Source of the DNA: Tenggerimyces flavus
GTDB taxonomy: Bacteria; Actinomycetota; Actinomycetes; Propionibacteriales; Actinopolymorphaceae
Length of the DNA: 64,000 bases
Assembly (NCBI RefSeq): GCF_016907715.1
Contig: NZ_JAFBCM010000001.1
Location: 1,860,001 to 1,924,000, forward strand
Direction of reading: 5' to 3'
Each line of letters starts with the position of its first letter. Position 1 is the first letter of the stretch. A program made the translations under genes and the position numbers. The notes under the pieces are model-generated. The model searched no databases. It saw only the letters and a program-made list of their open reading frames with translations, and had not been told where the DNA came from. Positions 13,808 to 23,042 of this stretch are shown here, one piece after another.

Positions 13808-14008
13808 GTGCGGGTCAACCTGCTCGGGCCGCTCGACGTCCGAGACGACGCCGGCGAGCCGATCGAGGTCGCCGGCGTCCCGCCGCTCGCCACGATCACC
13901 GACCGCGCCCGTGCAGCACTCGGCCCCGAGGCGTACGAGGCCGCGTACGCCCGCGGCACCGCCCTCACCCGCGAGCAGGCCCTCGCCCGCGTTCAGGACT
14001 ACCTCTGA
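13808..14008 (+). pseudogene. relic of an AfsR/SARP-type regulator with a large internal deletion
   Basis: This 66-codon frame begins with a GTG and reads VNLLGPLDVRDDAGEPIEVAG, matching the first ~23 residues of AfsR/BTAD regulators (compare the intact gene at 19923). It then jumps to TDRARAALGPEAYEAAYARG and a final TREQALARV, which matches the last ~36 residues of the same family (intact gene: ARAREALGDEAYERAFATG). About 1000 residues (DNA-binding, BTAD, NB-ARC and TPR regions) are missing, yet the frame is kept. It is a collapsed regulator and not a functional gene. Confidence 0.8.
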
Positions 14009-14028: not shown

Positions 14029-15213
14029 CTATCTCTTGGCGTCGAACGAGGTCCAGGTGTTGGGGCCTTGAGCGGTGTGGAGGTGGACGGTCTGTGTGCC
14101 TTCGGCGTCGACAGAGAGCGAGAACTGGCTGGGCTCTGGTTCGCGATGTCGAACCCAGCGGGCGTGGGTGTCTTCAGCGACCGCCCACAGGTCTTGCGGC
14201 CCGCCGTACTCGACGTTGATTCGGGAACCGGTGTCGGTGACCTGCGTCCACGAACCATCCAGGTGGTGGCCCAAGTAGATCCCCGCGCCCCCTTCGGTCG
14301 TGATGCTGAAGGCCGACACGTCGGGTAGTGCCAGGCCTATGGCGAACCTCGCCGCGTCGCTGTCCAGGTCGAGTGGCCGAAGGCCGCTGCGTCTCCGAGT
14401 CGTTGTCTGGGCGGCGCGTCCACGTAGCTGTGCGAACGCCGGGCTCGCGTGCGACCGCATCGGCATGAACGAAGCGGCGTCGCGCAGAAACGAGCCCGAT
14501 GCGCTACCTCGACCGTCAGGAACGAGAAGAACGAGCGCATAGCCATGCAGACTGGTCTCGATGGTGGTCAGAATCCTGCCGCCGATCGCGGTCTGTGCGA
14601 TCCACTCCGACGGGATATGACGGACAGCGCAGGTAGCGATGATGCGGTCGAAAGGGGCGTTGGCCGACCAGCCGTTGGCGCCGTCGCCAGCGATCACAGT
14701 TGGCTGGAGCCCGAGAACGTTGAGTCTTCCGCGGGCCGTCTCGACGATTGCGGGGTCGACGTCGATGGTCGTGACGTTCTTGTCGCCGACGCGATGGCAT
14801 AGGAGCGCGGCGTTGTAGCCCGTGCCTGTGCCGATCTCCAATGTGCGCATGCCATCGTCCAATTCAAGGGCTTCGAGCATGCGGAGCATGAGACCTGGCG
14901 CGGTCGAGGAAGAGGTGGGAACACCGTGCGTCGCGCCGGGATCTCCATCGAATTGAGTCACGAGGGGCTCGTTCGAGTACACGACACCGATCCATTCCGG
15001 ATCGCTGGTCGTCACTAGCACGAGCTCGCCCGTTTCAGAGTGAGGCATGAAGAAACGTGGCAAGAATGCGTCACGTGGCGTGGCGAGTAGGGCCTGCCGC
15101 CACGCCTGCGACCGTAGATCTCCGGACTCGATGAGAAGGTCGGCCAATTCTGTGCGAAGGCGCTGCCGGGCTGGATCTCGGCCGACGTTCACGCTGTTGT
15201 GGTCCTCGTTCAC
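14029..15213 (-). CDS. PIMT-like O-methyltransferase of an ATP-grasp RiPP (graspetide) system
   Basis: 394 residues. The N-terminal half is a protein-L-isoaspartate O-methyltransferase-like domain: TPRDAFLPRFF near residue 45, the SAM-binding motif LEIGTGTGYNAALL (~145-158), and TIDVDP for the second SAM contact. The C-terminal half (~250-394) is an extra beta-rich domain typical of the methyltransferases paired with ATP-grasp peptide maturases (TIGR04188-type). Characterised relatives (fuscimiditide system) methylate an Asp in the graspetide, which then closes to an aspartimide. Start GTG 15213 overlaps the ATP-grasp stop by 4 bp (GTGA). It is the last gene of the RiPP operon and is convergent with the regulator relic. 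Confidence 0.85.
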   Translation of the reverse strand: MNEDHNSVNVGRDPARQRLRTELADLLIESGDLRSQAWRQALLATPRDAFLPRFFMPHSETGELVLVTTSDPEWIGVVYSNEPLVTQFDGDPGATHGVPTSSSTAPGLMLRMLEALELDDGMRTLEIGTGTGYNAALLCHRVGDKNVTTIDVDPAIVETARGRLNVLGLQPTVIAGDGANGWSANAPFDRIIATCAVRHIPSEWIAQTAIGGRILTTIETSLHGYALVLLVPDGRGSASGSFLRDAASFMPMRSHASPAFAQLRGRAAQTTTRRRSGLRPLDLDSDAARFAIGLALPDVSAFSITTEGGAGIYLGHHLDGSWTQVTDTGSRINVEYGGPQDLWAVAEDTHARWVRHREPEPSQFSLSVDAEGTQTVHLHTAQGPNTWTSFDAKR

Positions 15214-16184
15214 AACTGAGCTCCGACGAGTAGGTCGGCGATCGCGGCGGCGATCGGCAGGCCAGTTCGTTGTTGCATCCAGATCCACTGGCCGGACGGG
15301 TTGCATTCGAACATCACCCACTCACCCTTCCTGGTTACCGCGAAGTCGAAGGCGCCAAAGTTCAGTCCGAAGTGTTTCATCCAGGCCAGAACGCCAAGTC
15401 GTACCTCGTCGGGCACCCCGGTTGTGCCGTACTCGAGAGCGTCGTAGTCAGTCCGCCAGTCCACGTGCGCCTGCCGGCTCCGAGCGTGGATCGTGCCGGC
15501 GAACATGCGCTCGCCGACGACTGTGAGTCGAACTTCGTGATCCTTCTGTATCCACTCCTGAAACAGGTGGGCGGTAAGGCGTACCGAGTCGTCGATCTCC
15601 ACGGGGTCGATCAGCTGTGTCGGTACCCCGTTACGTGCGCCGTTGTCGTGCTGGAGCTGCCCACCGTGCAACGACTTGCACACCACCTGGCCACCGATAT
15701 CCCTGGCGAACTCGCGAGCATGTCGAGGGTCGTTCGTTATGAGCGTGCGCGGGATTCGCAGCCCGTAGGCGGCAGCGATGGGCAACTGGCAGGGCTTCTC
15801 CGCGGCCTTCATATCGACGTCTGGTCGGTTCACCCACACTGCAGGCAGAGCGTAGAGAACGCCAAGCAATCCGGCCACGGCCTCGCCCCGAGCCCAGCTG
15901 CGGTAGGGCTCGTCCACGTGATCGGCGATCGCTGGCGGTTCGGGCCGCCGGTAGTAGACGGCCCGGACCTGTTCCAGGTCAGCAGCTCGGCACGCTCCCT
16001 CTATGACACCGCACCAGCGCTCCTCGAGCCGCGCCCGTAACGTGAGATGCTGCGGGAAGGTGGAGAGGTCGAATCGCATGACCGGCGCCTGCCGAGAGTT
16101 CAGCTCGTGGACGACCAGATCGGCAGTCGGATCGAGTTCTTCGGCGAGAACCAGGATTGTGCCGCGGTCGAGCTTCGTTGTCAT
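15210..16184 (-). CDS. ATP-grasp peptide maturase (graspetide ligase)
   Basis: 324 residues, the size of the actinobacterial ATP-grasp ribosomal peptide maturases (TIGR04187/SAV_5884-type). The N-terminal pre-ATP-grasp fold (ILVLAEELDPTADLVVHELN) is followed by the YYRRPEPP motif common to this family, the ATP-grasp nucleotide-binding lysine region GGQVVCKSLHGG, FQEWIQKDHEVRLTVVG, and metal-binding residues in FGAFDFAV and MFECNPSGQW. It is expected to join Thr/Ser/Lys side chains of the precursor to Asp/Glu side chains, making macrolactone or macrolactam rings. ATG 16184 overlaps the precursor stop (ATGA); the frame is open further upstream but that part overlaps the precursor gene. Confidence 0.88.
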   Translation of the reverse strand: MTTKLDRGTILVLAEELDPTADLVVHELNSRQAPVMRFDLSTFPQHLTLRARLEERWCGVIEGACRAADLEQVRAVYYRRPEPPAIADHVDEPYRSWARGEAVAGLLGVLYALPAVWVNRPDVDMKAAEKPCQLPIAAAYGLRIPRTLITNDPRHAREFARDIGGQVVCKSLHGGQLQHDNGARNGVPTQLIDPVEIDDSVRLTAHLFQEWIQKDHEVRLTVVGERMFAGTIHARSRQAHVDWRTDYDALEYGTTGVPDEVRLGVLAWMKHFGLNFGAFDFAVTRKGEWVMFECNPSGQWIWMQQRTGLPIAAAIADLLVGAQL

Positions 16185-16402
16185 ACGACTCGGTACGGGT
16201 CGCTGGTGTCGTCGTTCTTGCTGTCGTAGTTGGTATTCGTACAGGTTGCCGGCATCTCGCTGGACAGGCACCACAGTTGGCCCCCAGCGACGACGTTCAC
16301 CTGCTGGTTCGGGTCGTAGGTCACCGATCCCGCCTCGATGTCGATGATGTGCGGTGAACGCTCCGCGCGGGCTCCGAACGGTACGGTCTGCTGGTCGGTC
16401 AT
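16181..16402 (-). CDS. graspetide precursor peptide (ATP-grasp target RiPP)
   Basis: 73 residues, immediately upstream of and overlapping the ATP-grasp ligase by 4 bp. The leader has the family hallmark PFGARAERSPH at residues 8-18, then DIEAG and VTYDP, and GGQLW at 40-44, as in TIGR04186-type putative ATP-grasp targets. The C-terminal part (about residues 47-71) is rich in Ser/Thr donors and acidic acceptors: S47, S48, E49, T53, T55, T57, D60, S61, K62, D64, D65, T66, S67, D68. DS (60-61) and DT (65-66) are candidate aspartimide sites. A GAGGAG ribosome-binding site stands 7-8 nt before ATG 16402. Ring pattern cannot be derived from sequence alone. Confidence 0.85.
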   Translation of the reverse strand: MTDQQTVPFGARAERSPHIIDIEAGSVTYDPNQQVNVVAGGQLWCLSSEMPATCTNTNYDSKNDDTSDPYRVV

Positions 16403-16429
16403 GGCGTTTCTCCTCTGCTCGATTGATCT

Positions 16430-16669
16430 CTAGGCTTGTCGAGGTGTGACTACGGTCGTAGCTGAGCCGCTAGGCATCTGGCGTAGGTCCGCCCCAAGTT
16501 CGACGAGAGTCAGTGGCCGGGGAACGATCGCCGTTCCGACCCGGGCCATTCGTGCCGATCCCCACGAGACCTCGATCTCGCTCATGGTCCACATGCCAAA
16601 GTTGTGGACGAGGTAGGCGGTTCTGTCGTCGACCGCGTCAAGATGGATGAGCAACGCTCGTAGGCGCAT
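16430..16669 (-). CDS. possible small protein upstream of the graspetide precursor
   Basis: A 79-residue frame on the same strand as the RiPP operon, ending 27 bp before the precursor start. It reads as a plausible small soluble protein (LLIHLDAVDDRTAYLVHNFG, then SEIEVSWGSARMARVG and a VPRPLTLVEL segment) but I recognise no family. ATG 16669 has no clear ribosome-binding site; a GGAGGGAG stands about 25 nt before it, nearer to an ATG in another frame. An internal ATG before SEIEVSW is an alternative start. It may be a true accessory gene of the RiPP locus or an unused frame. Confidence 0.4.
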   Translation of the reverse strand: MRLRALLIHLDAVDDRTAYLVHNFGMWTMSEIEVSWGSARMARVGTAIVPRPLTLVELGADLRQMPSGSATTVVTPRQA

Positions 16670-16791
16670 GCCATGCCCGGTTCCATCAATGGTCTCCCTC
16701 CGACTGTGCCTTGGCCGTGTCCGGGACCGATCGCGTCTACGGCACCTACTTCGGCGACGGACGTTGCATCGCTACCGCCAGTGAGATGCTG

Positions 16792-16818
16792 TTGCGCCGT
16801 CGAGTGCGCGGCTAGAAT
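16792..16818 (+). promoter_or_regulatory. weak promoter candidate for the HTH regulator
   Basis: The 243 bp between the small open frame and the HTH regulator start contains TTGCGC at 16792-16797 and TAGAAT at 16813-16818, with a 15-bp spacer. This could be a sigma-70-type promoter giving a ~90-nt leader. The spacer is short, so the call is tentative. I saw nothing else in this stretch. Confidence 0.25.
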
Positions 16819-16912
16819 TCGCCCTTCACGGTGGTTGTCGACCAAAGACCAATGCCGGTCAGCGGCACCAGCAGGCGTGCCGCGCAACTTCCGCAGTTCT
16901 ACGGGGAGTTCC

Positions 16913-18103
16913 ATGACACAGGACGATAAAGGCGCGGCTCGTGAGTCGGGAGTGACCAGCAGTCCACGCTTGCGGGCAGCGAAGACCCTGTCGCAAGCCT
17001 CAGCGGACCGTGCGGGTACTCCCGGTACCCCCACACGGAGGCGACCGCCATCGATCGGCGACGGGGTCATCGCCGGTCACGTGTTGCGGATCGCACGAGA
17101 GACTGTGCGTGCCACCCGTGAACAGTTCGCTGAGCAGCTCGGTGTGGACATCGAAACCGTCAAGGCATGGGAAACCGGGCGTCGCCCGCTAGTGAACGCT
17201 TCTGGCAAAGTCATTCGGCATGTGCGACTTCACCTTCGTCGAAGTGGTGTTGCGCCCCGGCTCATAGGACTCCTCGAACCTGCGATGGAGGCGGATCTGT
17301 TCTACGAGCAAGTTGTGGCGGGCGAGGATCCCAGGTGTTGGGTTCTTGCGAATGTGGTCGGGTGGCGCGAGTTGTTCGAGTTGATCTTCTGGCCGATCAC
17401 GGGACGAGCGCCGGCAGCGATTCGAAACCTCGCGGACGTGACGTCTCTGCAGCCCCTGCGTCCGGGCGAGCTGTCGATCTTCTTCGACCACCTGCAGAGA
17501 GGTGCCGATAGACCGCTGACCGGACCGCTTCTGCGCAGGCAGGCGTACTTCTTGTCGGGCGTCGATCGGAGATCCGACAGCAAGAGCTGGCTCGCGAGCG
17601 TGGAACGCGACGGGCTTGTCTCCGGAGCCGGGAAGGAATGGCCAGGCGGCTGGGCAACGTTGCGTAGCTTGGCCGTTGCGAGAGCGTGTCAAGGCGACCC
17701 GGGACTTCTCCAGTCATTCATCTCGCGTCACCTGGCCGACGACGACTTGGCCGAGACAGCAAGCATCGTGTACTGGGCGTACTGGCTCGAACCACCGGAG
17801 GGGGGTGCGGAGTCGGACACTTTCATGTCGACCACTCATCCTGATCAGGTTCCACTCGGGAAGCTGCTGAGACATCTCGCCGCCCAGCTGTCCGAATCCC
17901 AGCCGTTCGTTGACCTGAGTGTGCATTCAACCGATGCATTGATTCGTCGCTACCCTCGCCTTCTGCTGAGCGATCGAGAAGCCGCGGCCGGCCTGGCCAA
18001 CACGGCAGCTAGTCTCTTGGACGGTGGAACTGGCTACGCACCCACCCGGAGAGCGCTGGACAGGATCCACTACACCGCCAAGTTTGCGAGGGAGTCGGTG
18101 TGA
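16913..18103 (+). CDS. XRE-type helix-turn-helix regulator
   Basis: 396 residues from ATG 16913, which has GGGGAG just upstream. Residues ~45-105 carry an XRE-like DNA-binding domain (VRATREQFAEQLGVDIETVKAWETGRRP). The remaining ~290 residues are helical with no recognisable enzyme motif, and may be a ligand-sensing or TPR-like region. It is divergent from the RiPP operon across 243 bp plus the small open frame, and overlaps the HD-domain gene by 4 bp (GTGA), so the two are cotranscribed. It is the best candidate regulator of the RiPP genes; that link is inferred from position. Confidence 0.7.
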   Translation: MTQDDKGAARESGVTSSPRLRAAKTLSQASADRAGTPGTPTRRRPPSIGDGVIAGHVLRIARETVRATREQFAEQLGVDIETVKAWETGRRPLVNASGKVIRHVRLHLRRSGVAPRLIGLLEPAMEADLFYEQVVAGEDPRCWVLANVVGWRELFELIFWPITGRAPAAIRNLADVTSLQPLRPGELSIFFDHLQRGADRPLTGPLLRRQAYFLSGVDRRSDSKSWLASVERDGLVSGAGKEWPGGWATLRSLAVARACQGDPGLLQSFISRHLADDDLAETASIVYWAYWLEPPEGGAESDTFMSTTHPDQVPLGKLLRHLAAQLSESQPFVDLSVHSTDALIRRYPRLLLSDREAAAGLANTAASLLDGGTGYAPTRRALDRIHYTAKFARESV

Positions 18104-18675
18104 ACGACGCAGCACCTGTTTGTCGGTTCCTGTACGAGGTGGGGTACCTGAAGCGGTCTCCGCGTGTCGGCTGGGAAGTCGGTGGCGTGGCTGGCCGGAT
18201 CGAGTCCGTCGCGGAGCACTCCTTCCGGACGGCGATTCTGGCCCACCTGATCGCTACGGCCGAGGGTGGGAATCCCGACCGAGCCGCGACTCTGGGGCTG
18301 TATCACGACGTACCTGAGACACGGATCGGGGACATCCCATATGTGGGCCGGCGGTACTTGACCGCCGCTGAACCGGAAACGATCGTCAAGGATCAGACCA
18401 GCAGCATGCCCGAGACGATCTCGGCGCCGATTCGGGCGGCGATAGCCGAGTTCGAGGCGGGGGAGACGATCGAAGCGGTCTGCGCGCGCGATGCCGACAA
18501 GCTGGAGTGCCTGCTCCAAGCACGCGAGTACCAGATTGCCGGAGCAACGGACATCGACGCCTGGATCGAGTCATCCAAGCGAGCAGTGAGGACACAGACA
18601 GGGCGTCGCTTGGCCGAAGAGGCGCTGGTCACACACCCCGGTGACTGGTGGAGGGCTGCGCAAGGCTCGCGCTAG
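18100..18675 (+). CDS. HD-domain phosphohydrolase (YfbR-like)
   Basis: 191 residues with an HD fold of the 5'-nucleotidase/YfbR type: ESVAEHSFRTAILAHLIA supplies the first metal His, GLYHDVPETRIGD the HD pair, and CARDADKLECLLQAREY the distal Asp. Family members hydrolyse nucleoside monophosphates. GTG 18100 overlaps the stop of the HTH regulator by 4 bp. Its partner role beside the RiPP locus is unknown; a nucleotide-linked signalling or housekeeping function is equally possible. Confidence 0.8.
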   Translation: MNDAAPVCRFLYEVGYLKRSPRVGWEVGGVAGRIESVAEHSFRTAILAHLIATAEGGNPDRAATLGLYHDVPETRIGDIPYVGRRYLTAAEPETIVKDQTSSMPETISAPIRAAIAEFEAGETIEAVCARDADKLECLLQAREYQIAGATDIDAWIESSKRAVRTQTGRRLAEEALVTHPGDWWRAAQGSR

Positions 18676-18817: not shown

Positions 18818-19861
18818 TCAGGTCAGCTCGGGTAGCTCCTGGGGCAGGGGCCTGAGCGCGGGCCACCGGGCGAGCATGTTGGCGCGCATGCTCGCGGCGA
18901 GTCGTCCGAGCGTTGTCAGTTCCTCGCGGTCCGCACTCATCTCACCGAGGATTCCGAGGCGGTGCACCAGCCTCTCCCTGGCCGTCGCGGTACCCCACTC
19001 CCAGTCCTGCTTCGGCAGCCTGGCCAGGTGATCCACAGTGCCACGGTGGGCTCGCTGGACGAGCGCGTCACCTCGCAGCAGCCAGCCGGCGCAGGCGTCG
19101 GTGAGGTCGCCGAGAACGTCGGTGCCCGTGGCCTGGTGCCAGGCTGTTCGGTAGGCGGTCTCCGCCGCGTCGAGCAGGGCCTGGGTCGGGCTGGTGGAGC
19201 ACCAGCATGTCGGAAAGCCGATGCGCAGGTACGCGACTTCGGCCAGTCCGTTACCGAGCGCGGCCTGTTCGAAGTCGATGAACCTGACACCACTGCTGGT
19301 GTGCAGGGCGTTGTCGGGGCAGGGATCGCCATGCAGGAGGGCATGGCCAGGTGTGCGGCTGAGTCGGTCGAGCACGTCGTCCAGCTCGGCCCGCACCCTG
19401 GAGGTCACGGCGACATCGAGCTGCTGAGCGAGCCCGAGGAAGCTTTGGACGTCGTCGTCGGTGGGGCCGGACCAGGCAGGTAGGACGGATGAGGATGTGT
19501 CGTCGGCGGTGGTAGCGGCATGCAGCCTCGCCAGGGCCGTCGCGTACGCGACGGCCCAGTCTGCGGGCGGTTCCTGCTGATCCACGTATTCGAGGACGAG
19601 CATCCGTTCGCGCGGATCCGCTCCGAGCAACCTGGGTGCGACCGGTGGATACACCCTCGCTGAAAGTCTCAGCGCGGCCACCTCGCGCGCATACCGGTCG
19701 TCCGCCTCCGCGCCGTCGACGAGCTGCTTGACCACGACCGACACACCGGCCAGCTCCGCCCGCCACACCCGTGACCGCGGGCTGCTGCTCACCCTCTTCG
19801 CCCGGCGCGGCCGCCCCAGTTCGGACCGCAGCTCCTCCCCGAACCGAAGTCTCGACCACAT
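18818..19861 (-). CDS. aminoglycoside phosphotransferase-fold kinase
   Basis: 347 residues with the APH fold: SVVVKQLVDG supplies the ATP-binding Lys, LVLEYVDQQ the hinge, ALLHGDPCPDNAL the catalytic loop (Asp and Asn), and VRFIDFEQAALG the metal-binding Asp. The start ATG 19861 is 61 bp from the divergent AfsR-type regulator. Substrate unknown; nothing supports antibiotic resistance specifically. It shares only the fold motifs with the kinases at 11215 and 49781. Confidence 0.8.
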   Translation of the reverse strand: MWSRLRFGEELRSELGRPRRAKRVSSSPRSRVWRAELAGVSVVVKQLVDGAEADDRYAREVAALRLSARVYPPVAPRLLGADPRERMLVLEYVDQQEPPADWAVAYATALARLHAATTADDTSSSVLPAWSGPTDDDVQSFLGLAQQLDVAVTSRVRAELDDVLDRLSRTPGHALLHGDPCPDNALHTSSGVRFIDFEQAALGNGLAEVAYLRIGFPTCWCSTSPTQALLDAAETAYRTAWHQATGTDVLGDLTDACAGWLLRGDALVQRAHRGTVDHLARLPKQDWEWGTATARERLVHRLGILGEMSADREELTTLGRLAASMRANMLARWPALRPLPQELPELT

Positions 19862-19922
19862 GGCTTCATCGTTTCATCCGGCGCTCGCCGGCGTTTCTGG
19901 GGTGACCTGGCAGGCTGGAGGC

Positions 19923-22900
19923 GTGCGCATCGACGTACTCGGCCCTCTGGCGGTCCGGGACGAGGAGGGCCGGCCGGTCGAGGTCGGCGGGACGAGGTTG
20001 CGCGCGCTGCTCGTACTGCTCGCGCTACAGCCCGGTCGGCTGGTCACGACCGAGGCGCTGATCGACGGGCTGTGGGGCGACGACCCGCCCGGTGGGGCGA
20101 CGAACGCGCTGCAGTCGCTGGTCTCCCGGCTGCGGCGCGCCGGGATCCCGGTCGAGTCCAAGCCGGCCGGCTACCTGCTGCCGATCATGCCCGACGACGT
20201 CGACGCCTGCCGGTTCGAGGCGCTGGTCGCCGCCGGCAGGTACGACGACGCCGAGCGCGAGTGGCGCGGCGAAGCGCTCGCCGACGTGCTGGACGCCCCG
20301 TTCGCGACCGCTGTCGCGACGAGGCTCGAGGACCGCAGGCTCGACGTCGCCGAGCACCGCGCGCTCGACCTCGGCGAGCTGGAACGCCTGGCCGCCAAGC
20401 ACCCGCTGCGGGAGACGCTGCACGCCAAGCTCGTCAAAGCGCTCTCCGCGGCCGGGCGGCAGGCGGACGCGTTGGCCGCGTACGAACGGATCCGCAGAGC
20501 GCTCGCCGACGAGCTCGGCGTCGACCCGTCGCCGGCGCTCGCCGCCGTTCACCTCGCCGTCCTGCGGCACGACCCGTCCGTCGCGCCGCCAACACCAGCA
20601 CTGACCCGCACCAACCTCAGAGCCTCGCTCACCAGCTTCGTCGGACGCGAGACCGAGCTCGAACGCGTCGGCGCGCTGCTCGACGAGACCAGGCTGGTGA
20701 CCGTGTTCGGCCCCGGCGGCGCGGGCAAGACTCGCTTCGCGACCGAGCTCGCGGGAAGGCGGCAGGCGGACTCACCCGACGGCAGCTGGCTGGTCGAGCT
20801 CGCCCCGGTCACCAACGAGGACGACCTGCTGCAAGCTGTGCTCTCGGCGATGGGCATCCGCGAGGCCGTGCTGTTGGAGTCGTCGACGCTCGAACCCCGC
20901 CCGCTCAAGGCGCGGGCCGAGGTCGCGCGGCTGGTCGACGCGTTCGCGACCAAGCGGGCGCTGCTGATCCTCGACAACTGCGAACACCTGGTCACCGCGG
21001 CCGCGAGGCTGGCCGAGACGTTGCTCGCGTCCTGTCCCCAGCTGCGCATCCTGGCGACGAGCCGCGAGCCGCTGACGATCCTCGGCGAGAACGTCTACCC
21101 ACTCCCGCCGTTGTCCTGGCCCACCACGTCATCCGATCCCACGGAGGCGCTCGGGCACTCCGCGGTACGGCTGTTCGTCGATCGCGCGGTCGCCGTACGG
21201 CCAGACTTCGCACTCGACGAGGCGAATCTCAAAGCTGTACTGGAGATCTGCGCAAGGCTGGACGGGATGCCGCTCGCGATCGAGCTGGCGGCAGCCCGGC
21301 TGCGTTCGCTCGCTCCGGCTCAGATCGCTGCCAGGCTTGACGATCGGTTCCGACTGTTGACCGGCGGAAGTCGTACCGCCCTGCCGCGACACCAGACGCT
21401 GCGCGCTGTCGTCGAGTGGAGCTGGGACCTGCTGGACGAGCCTGAGCGCGTCCTCGCCCGCCGGCTCTCGGTGTTCCCGGCCGGCGCGACGCTGGAGTCG
21501 GCCGAGCTGGTCTGCGCAGCGCCCGACCAGGACGTGCTGCCGATCCTCGCCGCCCTTGTGGACAAGGCGATTCTGGTCGGCACGACCGACACCGGCAGCG
21601 AGGAGATGCGCTACCGGATGCTCGAGACGATCCGTGCGTACGGCGCCGAACAGCTCGCCGAGGCGGGTGAGCTCGCCGACGTAAGGGGCCGCCACGCGGT
21701 GTACTTCGGCGACCTCATCGAGACCGCCGACGCCCACCTGCGCACGCGCGAGCAGCTGACCTGGCTGGCCCGGGTGAGACGCGACTACGGCAACGTCGTC
21801 GCCGCACTGCGCTGGGCATTGGACACCGAGGACGGGGACCTGGCCGTCAGGTTCGGCGCGTCGATGATGTGGTTCTGGTTCATCGAGGGAAACCGGGCCG
21901 AGAGCATGGCGCTCATCGACGAGATCGTGACGCTGCCGGTGACGTCGCATCCCGAGGCCAGGGCGTCGGTGCTGGCGTTCCACGGCATGATGATGCTCAG
22001 CGCCGACCGCTTCGAGGAAGGCCGCGCGATCATCGGCAAGGCGATCGCGGACAGCCGTGCGCTCGACATGACCCAGTATCCGTTGATGCTGTTCCTCGAG
22101 GGCATCGTCTCGGTCTTCGACCGCGACCGCAACAAGGCGCGGGACACGCTGACCGGCCTCGTCGACCGGTACGGCGGCTGGGAACGCGCGCTGGCGTTGA
22201 CGTTTCTGGGATTCGTGGAGGGCAACGAGGGCAACCCCGACCTGTCGGCCGCGTATCTTCGCCGCGGGTTCGAGGCGTTCGCCGAGGTCGGCGACCGCTG
22301 GGGCATGGCCGCCGTGCGGCGCGCCGAGGCCGGTGACCTGTCGGCGGTCGGCGACCACGAGGGCGCGATCGCCGCGTACGACGAGGCCCTGCAACTGGTG
22401 CACGACCTCAACTCGGTCGACGACGTCGCGCACATGATGTCGGAGATGGGGCTGGAACGCGCGCGCATGGGCGACCTGGCCAGGGGTCGCGCCGAGCTGG
22501 AGGAGGCGCTGCGGTTCGCCGAGGAGTTCGGCCAGTCCGAGGCGCGGCACGTGGCACTGTGCGGGCTCGCGGAAGTCGAGATGAAGTCGAACGACATCCC
22601 GCGCGCTCGCGCCTTGCTGCACAGGGCATTCAGCGAGCTGCACCAGAGCGAGCGGCAGTCCGCGGGTCCGCCGCAGGCGAAGGCGCTGGTGCTCGTCGGG
22701 CTGGCGACGGCGGACGTGCTCGAACGCGATGCGCCGATGGCCGCGCAGCGGGCGCGGGAGGCCCTCCAGCACGGCATGGTCGCGTTCGACATGCCGGTAG
22801 TGTCGATCGCCGCGCGGATCGATGCCGCCGTCGCACTGCTGGAGGGATCGCCGGAACGAGCGGCCACCTTGCTCGGGCTCGCGGAGGCCGTACGCGGTGG

Positions 22901-23042
22901 GCCGCTGGTCGACGACAACGTGCTCCAGACCGCCGCCCGGGCCCGCGAGGCGTTGGGCGACGAAGCGTACGAGCGCGCGTTCGCGACCGGCCGGAGCCAG
23001 TCGCGAGACGACGCGCTCGCCAGCATTCTCCCTACGGAGTGA
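19923..23042 (+). CDS. AfsR/SARP-family BTAD-NB-ARC-TPR transcriptional regulator
   Basis: 1039 residues. The N terminus is an OmpR-like winged helix (VRIDVLGPLAVRDEEG...ALIDGLWGDDPP, ~1-90), followed by a BTAD domain (~95-230, ending DELGVDPSPALAAVH). An NB-ARC ATPase follows: P-loop VFGPGGAGKTR, Walker B LLILDNCEHLV, ATSREPL, and GMPLAIELAAARLR. The C-terminal half is TPR-like helical repeats. Such proteins activate secondary-metabolite or secretion genes. The GTG 19923 is chosen because the family starts with V/MRIDVLGPL. It overlaps the end of the convergent hydrolase gene by 11 bp. The relic at 13808 shows the same two ends. Confidence 0.88.
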   Translation: MRIDVLGPLAVRDEEGRPVEVGGTRLRALLVLLALQPGRLVTTEALIDGLWGDDPPGGATNALQSLVSRLRRAGIPVESKPAGYLLPIMPDDVDACRFEALVAAGRYDDAEREWRGEALADVLDAPFATAVATRLEDRRLDVAEHRALDLGELERLAAKHPLRETLHAKLVKALSAAGRQADALAAYERIRRALADELGVDPSPALAAVHLAVLRHDPSVAPPTPALTRTNLRASLTSFVGRETELERVGALLDETRLVTVFGPGGAGKTRFATELAGRRQADSPDGSWLVELAPVTNEDDLLQAVLSAMGIREAVLLESSTLEPRPLKARAEVARLVDAFATKRALLILDNCEHLVTAAARLAETLLASCPQLRILATSREPLTILGENVYPLPPLSWPTTSSDPTEALGHSAVRLFVDRAVAVRPDFALDEANLKAVLEICARLDGMPLAIELAAARLRSLAPAQIAARLDDRFRLLTGGSRTALPRHQTLRAVVEWSWDLLDEPERVLARRLSVFPAGATLESAELVCAAPDQDVLPILAALVDKAILVGTTDTGSEEMRYRMLETIRAYGAEQLAEAGELADVRGRHAVYFGDLIETADAHLRTREQLTWLARVRRDYGNVVAALRWALDTEDGDLAVRFGASMMWFWFIEGNRAESMALIDEIVTLPVTSHPEARASVLAFHGMMMLSADRFEEGRAIIGKAIADSRALDMTQYPLMLFLEGIVSVFDRDRNKARDTLTGLVDRYGGWERALALTFLGFVEGNEGNPDLSAAYLRRGFEAFAEVGDRWGMAAVRRAEAGDLSAVGDHEGAIAAYDEALQLVHDLNSVDDVAHMMSEMGLERARMGDLARGRAELEEALRFAEEFGQSEARHVALCGLAEVEMKSNDIPRARALLHRAFSELHQSERQSAGPPQAKALVLVGLATADVLERDAPMAAQRAREALQHGMVAFDMPVVSIAARIDAAVALLEGSPERAATLLGLAEAVRGGPLVDDNVLQTAARAREALGDEAYERAFATGRSQSRDDALASILPTE

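Follow-up and report, generated by a model that had tools for sequence, protein, structure and literature searches.

A three-gene cluster of Tenggerimyces flavus with the features of a group 13 graspetide (graspimiditide) locus

Within a stretch of 64,000 nucleotides from Tenggerimyces flavus (hereafter the window), we recognised a three-gene cluster that is very probably a group 13 graspetide (graspimiditide) locus, a hairpin of esters with an imide at Asp60 being the product proposed as its best explanation. This reading rests on the family matches of the proteins, the gene order, the clade in which the ligase falls, the invariance observed across 17 cores, the exchange between Ser and Gly after Asp60 and the additional C-terminal domain of the methyltransferase. 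We counted against it that 11% of shuffled cores reach the same pairing ladder, that the precursor model TIGR04186 was narrowly missed, that the methyltransferase carries the variant motif WVRHREP and matches 1dl5 loosely, and that no protease or transporter gene was recognised within the surrounding block of low G+C.

Organisation of the cluster and the precursor gene

The precursor, ligase and methyltransferase genes follow one another on the minus strand (Table 1). As the earlier note on this DNA had described, they are chained by an ATGA overlap between precursor and ligase and a GTGA overlap between ligase and methyltransferase. All three frames are intact, and GAGGAG lies 7 bases upstream of the precursor ATG.

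Table 1. Coordinates of the cluster, its predicted functional residues and the divergent gene pair, in positions of the window.
Feature	Position	Strand	Basis
Ribosome-binding site GAGGAG	16410..16415	(-)	consensus match only
Graspetide precursor	16181..16402	(-)	73 aa, ATG start; TIGR04186 24.3 bits (cut-off 25)
Leader motif PFGAR, residues 8-12	16367..16381	(-)	near-invariant columns in alignment
Conserved core residues 53-70, TCTNTNYDSKNDDTSDPY	16193..16246	(-)	comparison with relatives
Thr53, predicted outer ester donor	16244..16246	(-)	S/T in 17/17 cores; predicted linkage
Thr57, predicted inner ester donor	16232..16234	(-)	invariant in 17/17 cores; predicted linkage
Predicted aspartimide site Asp60-Ser61	16220..16225	(-)	D60 invariant in 17/17 cores; predicted assignment
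Asp64, predicted inner ester acceptor from Thr57	16211-16213	(-)	predicted linkage
Asp68, predicted outer ester acceptor from Thr53	16199-16201	(-)	predicted linkage
ATP-grasp graspetide ligase	15210..16184	(-)	324 aa; TIGR04187 385.6 bits (cut-off 350); PDB relatives
PIMT-like Asp O-methyltransferase with C-terminal domain	14029..15213	(-)	394 aa, GTG start; TIGR04188 385.5 bits (cut-off 380)
Divergent HTH regulator	16913..18103	(+)	HTH_31; start set at the Met nearer the starts of relatives (longest ORF begins 16673)
HD-domain hydrolase, YfbR-like	18100..18675	(+)	HD_3 82.7 bits; overlaps HTH gene

The precursor combines a leader motif of the (R)PFG type with a core of Thr/Ser and Asp residues, and scored just under the curated cut-off of the NCBIfam precursor model TIGR04186. 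PFGARAER occupies residues 8-15, and the preceding residue gives VPFG, not the RPFG named as the recognition motif of the leader in PMC13003496. The longer string PFGARxERSPH had been proposed as a hallmark; PFGARAER is indeed present, but only PFG is general among leaders, ARAER(S/T)P being specific to the subfamily. Among relatives, the PFGAR columns are missing from L012, where the PFG part of the leader is lost from the frame.

We do not consider the precursor a chance frame, because relatives of 54-64% identity occur at 10 Streptomyces loci, each with adjoining ligase and methyltransferase matches (one gene being broken in some of them), and because, between the 18-residue window core and each of these 10 cores, 4-6 of the codon differences are synonymous and 2 non-synonymous. 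The precursor had no credible match in the PDB. Its second Cys, Cys45, is matched in L014 and L015 and in none of the Streptomyces rows, so that there is no support for a disulfide conserved inside the precursor.

The ATP-grasp ligase and the PIMT-like methyltransferase

The ligase exceeded the cut-off of TIGR04187 (NCBIfam), which identifies it as a graspetide-type ATP-grasp ligase, and no other protein of the genome (8.5 Mb) matched this model at E 0.001. Pfam recognised the MvdD pre-ATP-grasp domain. The protein aligned over nearly its full length with solved graspetide ligases, best with 9bou (E 2.3e-40), followed by 5ig8, 7m4s, 5ig9 and 7mgv; the stretch FECNPSGQW lies within this alignment. 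In the ligase tree (49 rows, leaving out L008, L009 and L010 with their broken or weakly matched genes), the window grouped with seven Streptomyces sequences, two from the same order and L052 in a clade of 11 rows with an SH-aLRT support of 99.

The methyltransferase exceeded the cut-off of TIGR04188 (NCBIfam) and matched PCMT in Pfam. The earlier interpretation was supported in part: the product would be a fuscimiditide-like graspetide that is methylated and probably forms an aspartimide. Solved PIMTs match the protein by sequence only over about residues 98-232, and its AlphaFold model (mean pLDDT 88.5, from a 20-row alignment of the window and fetched loci) contains an extra C-terminal domain. 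The best Foldseek match was 1dl5, a two-domain enzyme of Thermotoga maritima (TM by target 0.67), the superposition of the two domains being loose (rmsd 6.5 Å over 369 columns, against 2.5 Å for PIMTs of one domain such as 3lbf). Judged from TIGR04188 and from this loosely superposed model, a PIMT homologue with an extra C-terminal domain adjoins the ligase, and such a domain marks RiPP-associated PIMT enzymes according to PMC10787088 and PMC13001092. The motif WxxxGxP, usual near the C-terminus of graspimiditide methyltransferases and not taken here as defining, reads WVRHREP in the window, with Arg for Gly; several other rows of the alignment also depart from it. PADLOC yielded nothing beyond a generic match to a methyltransferase domain (mad2, 54.5 bits, 111 residues) and a weak one to an HTH.

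A quick methyltransferase tree (48 rows, without L008 and L009, L027 and L028 having no methyltransferase row) placed the window and the same-order rows apart from Streptomyces and L052, with SH-aLRT supports of 99 and 97. This split, compared with the single ligase clade, suggested a methyltransferase swap, an idea that we dropped since a single methyltransferase clade stayed compatible with the data in the AU test (p 0.576 including L052, 0.48 excluding it).

Relatives of the cluster

When 84,980 species genomes were scanned with one pattern, 10 of the 63 candidate stretches proved to be relatives, all of them in Streptomyces. Profile searches at E 0.01 gave matches in 7 of 391 genomes of the order and 4 of 396 of the phylum, the former adding the core-bearing genomes G014 and G107. 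Among the profile-search loci opened, which did not include L018, L019 and L021, the core was present only in the genome of the window, G014 and G107, and L016, L017 and L020 were without the motifs; such absences are weak because 14 candidates were scored per genome. A class-wide ligase search added L052, and searches of plasmids brought in the clusters of S. jietaisiensis, S. griseoaurantiacus and S. cadmiisoli (counted without record H2, which was not opened), some plasmid relatives carrying the annotation tgmB. Four of the 10 Streptomyces loci have a damaged or doubtful gene: the methyltransferase is split in L008 and only weakly matched in L009, the ligase is broken in L010, and L012 has the out-of-frame leader mentioned above.

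The plasmid clusters with an Asp-Gly core (L076, L077, L081) have a neighbourhood unlike that of the window; they adjoin a gene annotated as encoding an ATP-binding protein, which in L077 matches HATPase_c, and L077 also has genes lacking a Pfam match. Related ligases, 45% identical to that of the window, occur at L027 and L028, whose precursors have an RPFG leader and end in EQCRPGDGNDDANSLLA and EHCRPGDGNDDANSLLA. The segment of these precursors immediately ahead of the acidic residues has Cys as its sole donor of the Thr/Ser/Lys/Cys type; a natural Cys donor would be unusual. No methyltransferase match was found within 16.5 kb in the corresponding larger stretches (L069, L070), the first of which has a GNAT acetyltransferase and an HTH gene upstream.

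Conservation of the core

We read 17 cores: those of the window, the 10 Streptomyces loci, L014, L015, L052 and the three plasmid clusters. The window has TCTNTNYDSKNDDTSDPY, all 10 Streptomyces loci from the pattern scan have SCTNTNWDSKNDDTSDPY, L014 and L015 both have SCTGTNWDS(K/R)PDDTADPY, and L052 and the three plasmids all have STTDTN(Q/L)DGKGDDVSDPY. Counts of cores are counts of sequences, not of independent events, the 10 Streptomyces cores being mutually identical, as are three of the four Asp-Gly cores. With this reservation, S/T53, T55, T57, N58, D60, D64, D65, D68, P69 and Y70 are unchanged in 17/17. By its sequence the core is thus no isolated oddity; it belongs to a conserved family present in Streptomyces, on Streptomyces plasmids and in two same-order genomes. 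The earlier note had presented it as an unusual mix of donors and acceptors; it can instead be read as a hairpin of the fuscimiditide type, T-x3-T / D-x3-D. Lys62 and Ser67, formerly listed among the donors, would not be obligatory ones, because Lys62 is Arg in L015 and Ser67 is Ala in L014 and L015. A text search of the literature for core strings gave, among the matches listed, only 'ctntn' in unrelated text. In L052 the stretch DTNQDGKGDD resembles the calcium loops of EF-hands and dockerins, a reading that we set aside as residue 56 varies between N, G and D among relatives.

Both Asp-Ser and Asp-Thr steps had been named as imide candidates. D60 is the likely site, being invariant, placed in the predicted loop and followed by Ser in 13 cores and Gly in four (L052, L076, L077, L081), and the D65-T66 step is disfavoured, T66 being replaced by Val in the same four cores, which gives D-V. 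PMC13001092 lists Ser among the residues able to follow the methylated Asp. The four natural characterised members that it describes are all Asp-Gly, none Asp-Ser, which counts against the explanation favoured here. The families of L055, L057 and L059 likewise have Asp-Ser at the candidate site, so this step is no peculiarity of the present core family.

Proposed ring register and maturation

From these observations we infer the register, the imide site and the following chemical steps. The ligase would bind the PFGAR part of the leader, phosphorylate Asp side chains of the core and esterify them with Thr side chains; the inner ester would most likely be Thr57-Asp64 and the outer one Thr53-Asp68. 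The resulting nested hairpin would have a six-residue loop, NYDSKN, carrying D60. The methyltransferase would then recognise the hairpin and methylate Asp60, and the amide nitrogen of Ser61 would displace methanol to form the aspartimide, which may hydrolyse to isoaspartate.

The nested register is consistent with fuscimiditide, whose esters are Thr3-Asp22 and Thr7-Asp18 (PMC12291112), T53/T57 and D64/D68 sharing the same x3 spacing. Its aspartimide sits in the loop (PMC13003496). Shortening the loop to no more than three residues made the fuscimiditide ligase less efficient (PMC12291112), and an eight-residue ring, as T57-D64 would also form, was inferred for an engineered ThfB product (PMC13003496). 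Two or more pairs forming a ladder with a spacing of four were found in 19 of the 21 cores tested, several of which are closely related to each other, and three pairs were found in three cores (shuffle fractions 0.0045-0.007); for L003, L034 and L036, a different ladder of equal length was obtained. The two-pair ladder of the window core was matched by 0.113 of 2000 shuffles and is not significant alone, so that the register proposed for the window is borrowed from the family.

The invariance of T55 and D65 in all 17 cores could point to a third ester, Thr55-Asp65, between the inner and outer rings, and two to five esters are given for characterised members in PMC13001092. We consider this addition rather doubtful, as the residue numbers of this pair add up to 120, out of register with the constant sum of 121, and as the TNTET family (such as L025) keeps the matching Thr but, by eye, has no counterpart of D65. 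We are equally hesitant about a lasting isoaspartate, the methyltransferase acting as described and the aspartimide being only an intermediate. SsfA(BM), whose methyltransferase belongs to the same enzyme family as that of the window, was isolated as an isoAsp/Asp mixture (PMC10787088), but three of the four graspimiditides characterised in PMC13001092 were purified with the imide.

Residue 54 is Cys in 13 of the 17 cores and Thr in the other four. We regard it as very improbable that Cys54 is itself a substrate of the ligase, linked as a native thioester to an acceptor such as Asp65, or a trap that attacks the Asp60 aspartimide close by. Thioesters made by graspetide synthetases are called non-native in PMC13097080, and relative to that account a natural one at Cys54 would be new.

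Genomic setting

The G+C content of positions 14029-16402 is 0.637, against 0.692 for the window, and GC3 ranges from 0.685 to 0.824 in the cluster and the divergent HTH-HD pair, against 0.899-0.912 in three flanking genes. These lower values suggest that the five-gene block 14029-18675 was probably acquired horizontally as a unit. Acquisition, together with the four defective Streptomyces loci (which may reflect decay or draft errors), would also suit a decaying or silent island making no peptide, an explanation that we regard as most improbable given the intact frames with their overlaps and ribosome-binding site and a core kept across genera despite codon changes. At positions 13808-14008, a 66-aa ORF resembles, by eye and by a weak match, two joined ends of an AfsR-type regulator such as that at 19728-23042; it may be what an internal deletion has left of such a gene, at the border of the low-G+C block.

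Of the nine Streptomyces loci whose upstream DNA covers 2.5 kb or more, six have the HTH gene and seven the HD gene. The pair was found in none of three further core-family loci (L064, L065, L066), and among nine stretches around other graspetides an HD match without HTH occurred in L069, L070 and L072. In the genome of the window, each gene is single at E 1e-8. HTH homologues occur in 28 plasmid records, and in the three opened (L078, L079, L080, all Streptomyces) HTH precedes HD; no graspetide gene is listed within 3.5 kb of the pair in these three records, whose gene table is incomplete. We thus rejected the pair as a dedicated part of the pathway, as it also occurs on plasmids without a listed graspetide gene nearby, and treated it as a general regulatory module. 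A divergent gene for a DUF6415 natural product biosynthesis protein adjoins the pair in L078; a DUF6415 gene adjoins the graspetide cluster in L081.

Comparison with known systems

Clusters of this type are already known, three surveys cited in PMC13001092 counting 1326, 962 and 1432 for four characterised products; to these the window most likely contributes a family of graspimiditides that is conserved and compact and has a short loop. Since one core occurs naturally with both Asp-Ser and Asp-Gly, it would allow testing the effect of the residue after the methylated Asp on the formation and lifetime of the imide.

The system of TIGR04186, TIGR04187 and TIGR04188 (SAV_5884 type) is matched by both enzymes above the cut-offs and by the precursor 0.7 bits under. 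Amycolimiditide, albusimiditide and SsfA(BM), of group 13, have a stem-loop with a methylated loop Asp (PMC13001092), as proposed for the window. They bear up to five esters and have Asp-Gly according to the same source, features that, on these descriptions, would set the window apart. Fuscimiditide (ThfA/B/M, Thermobifida fusca) likewise has a precursor, an ATP-grasp ligase and a PIMT homologue, with a 67-aa leader and a 22-aa core, and its two Thr-Asp esters have donors and acceptors each four apart, a spacing that the window core also offers (PMC12291112). The inner pair encloses ten residues in fuscimiditide (PMC12291112) and would enclose six in the window, the imide step is Asp-Gly in the former and would be Asp-Ser in the latter, and the window core adds Cys54 beside its donors.
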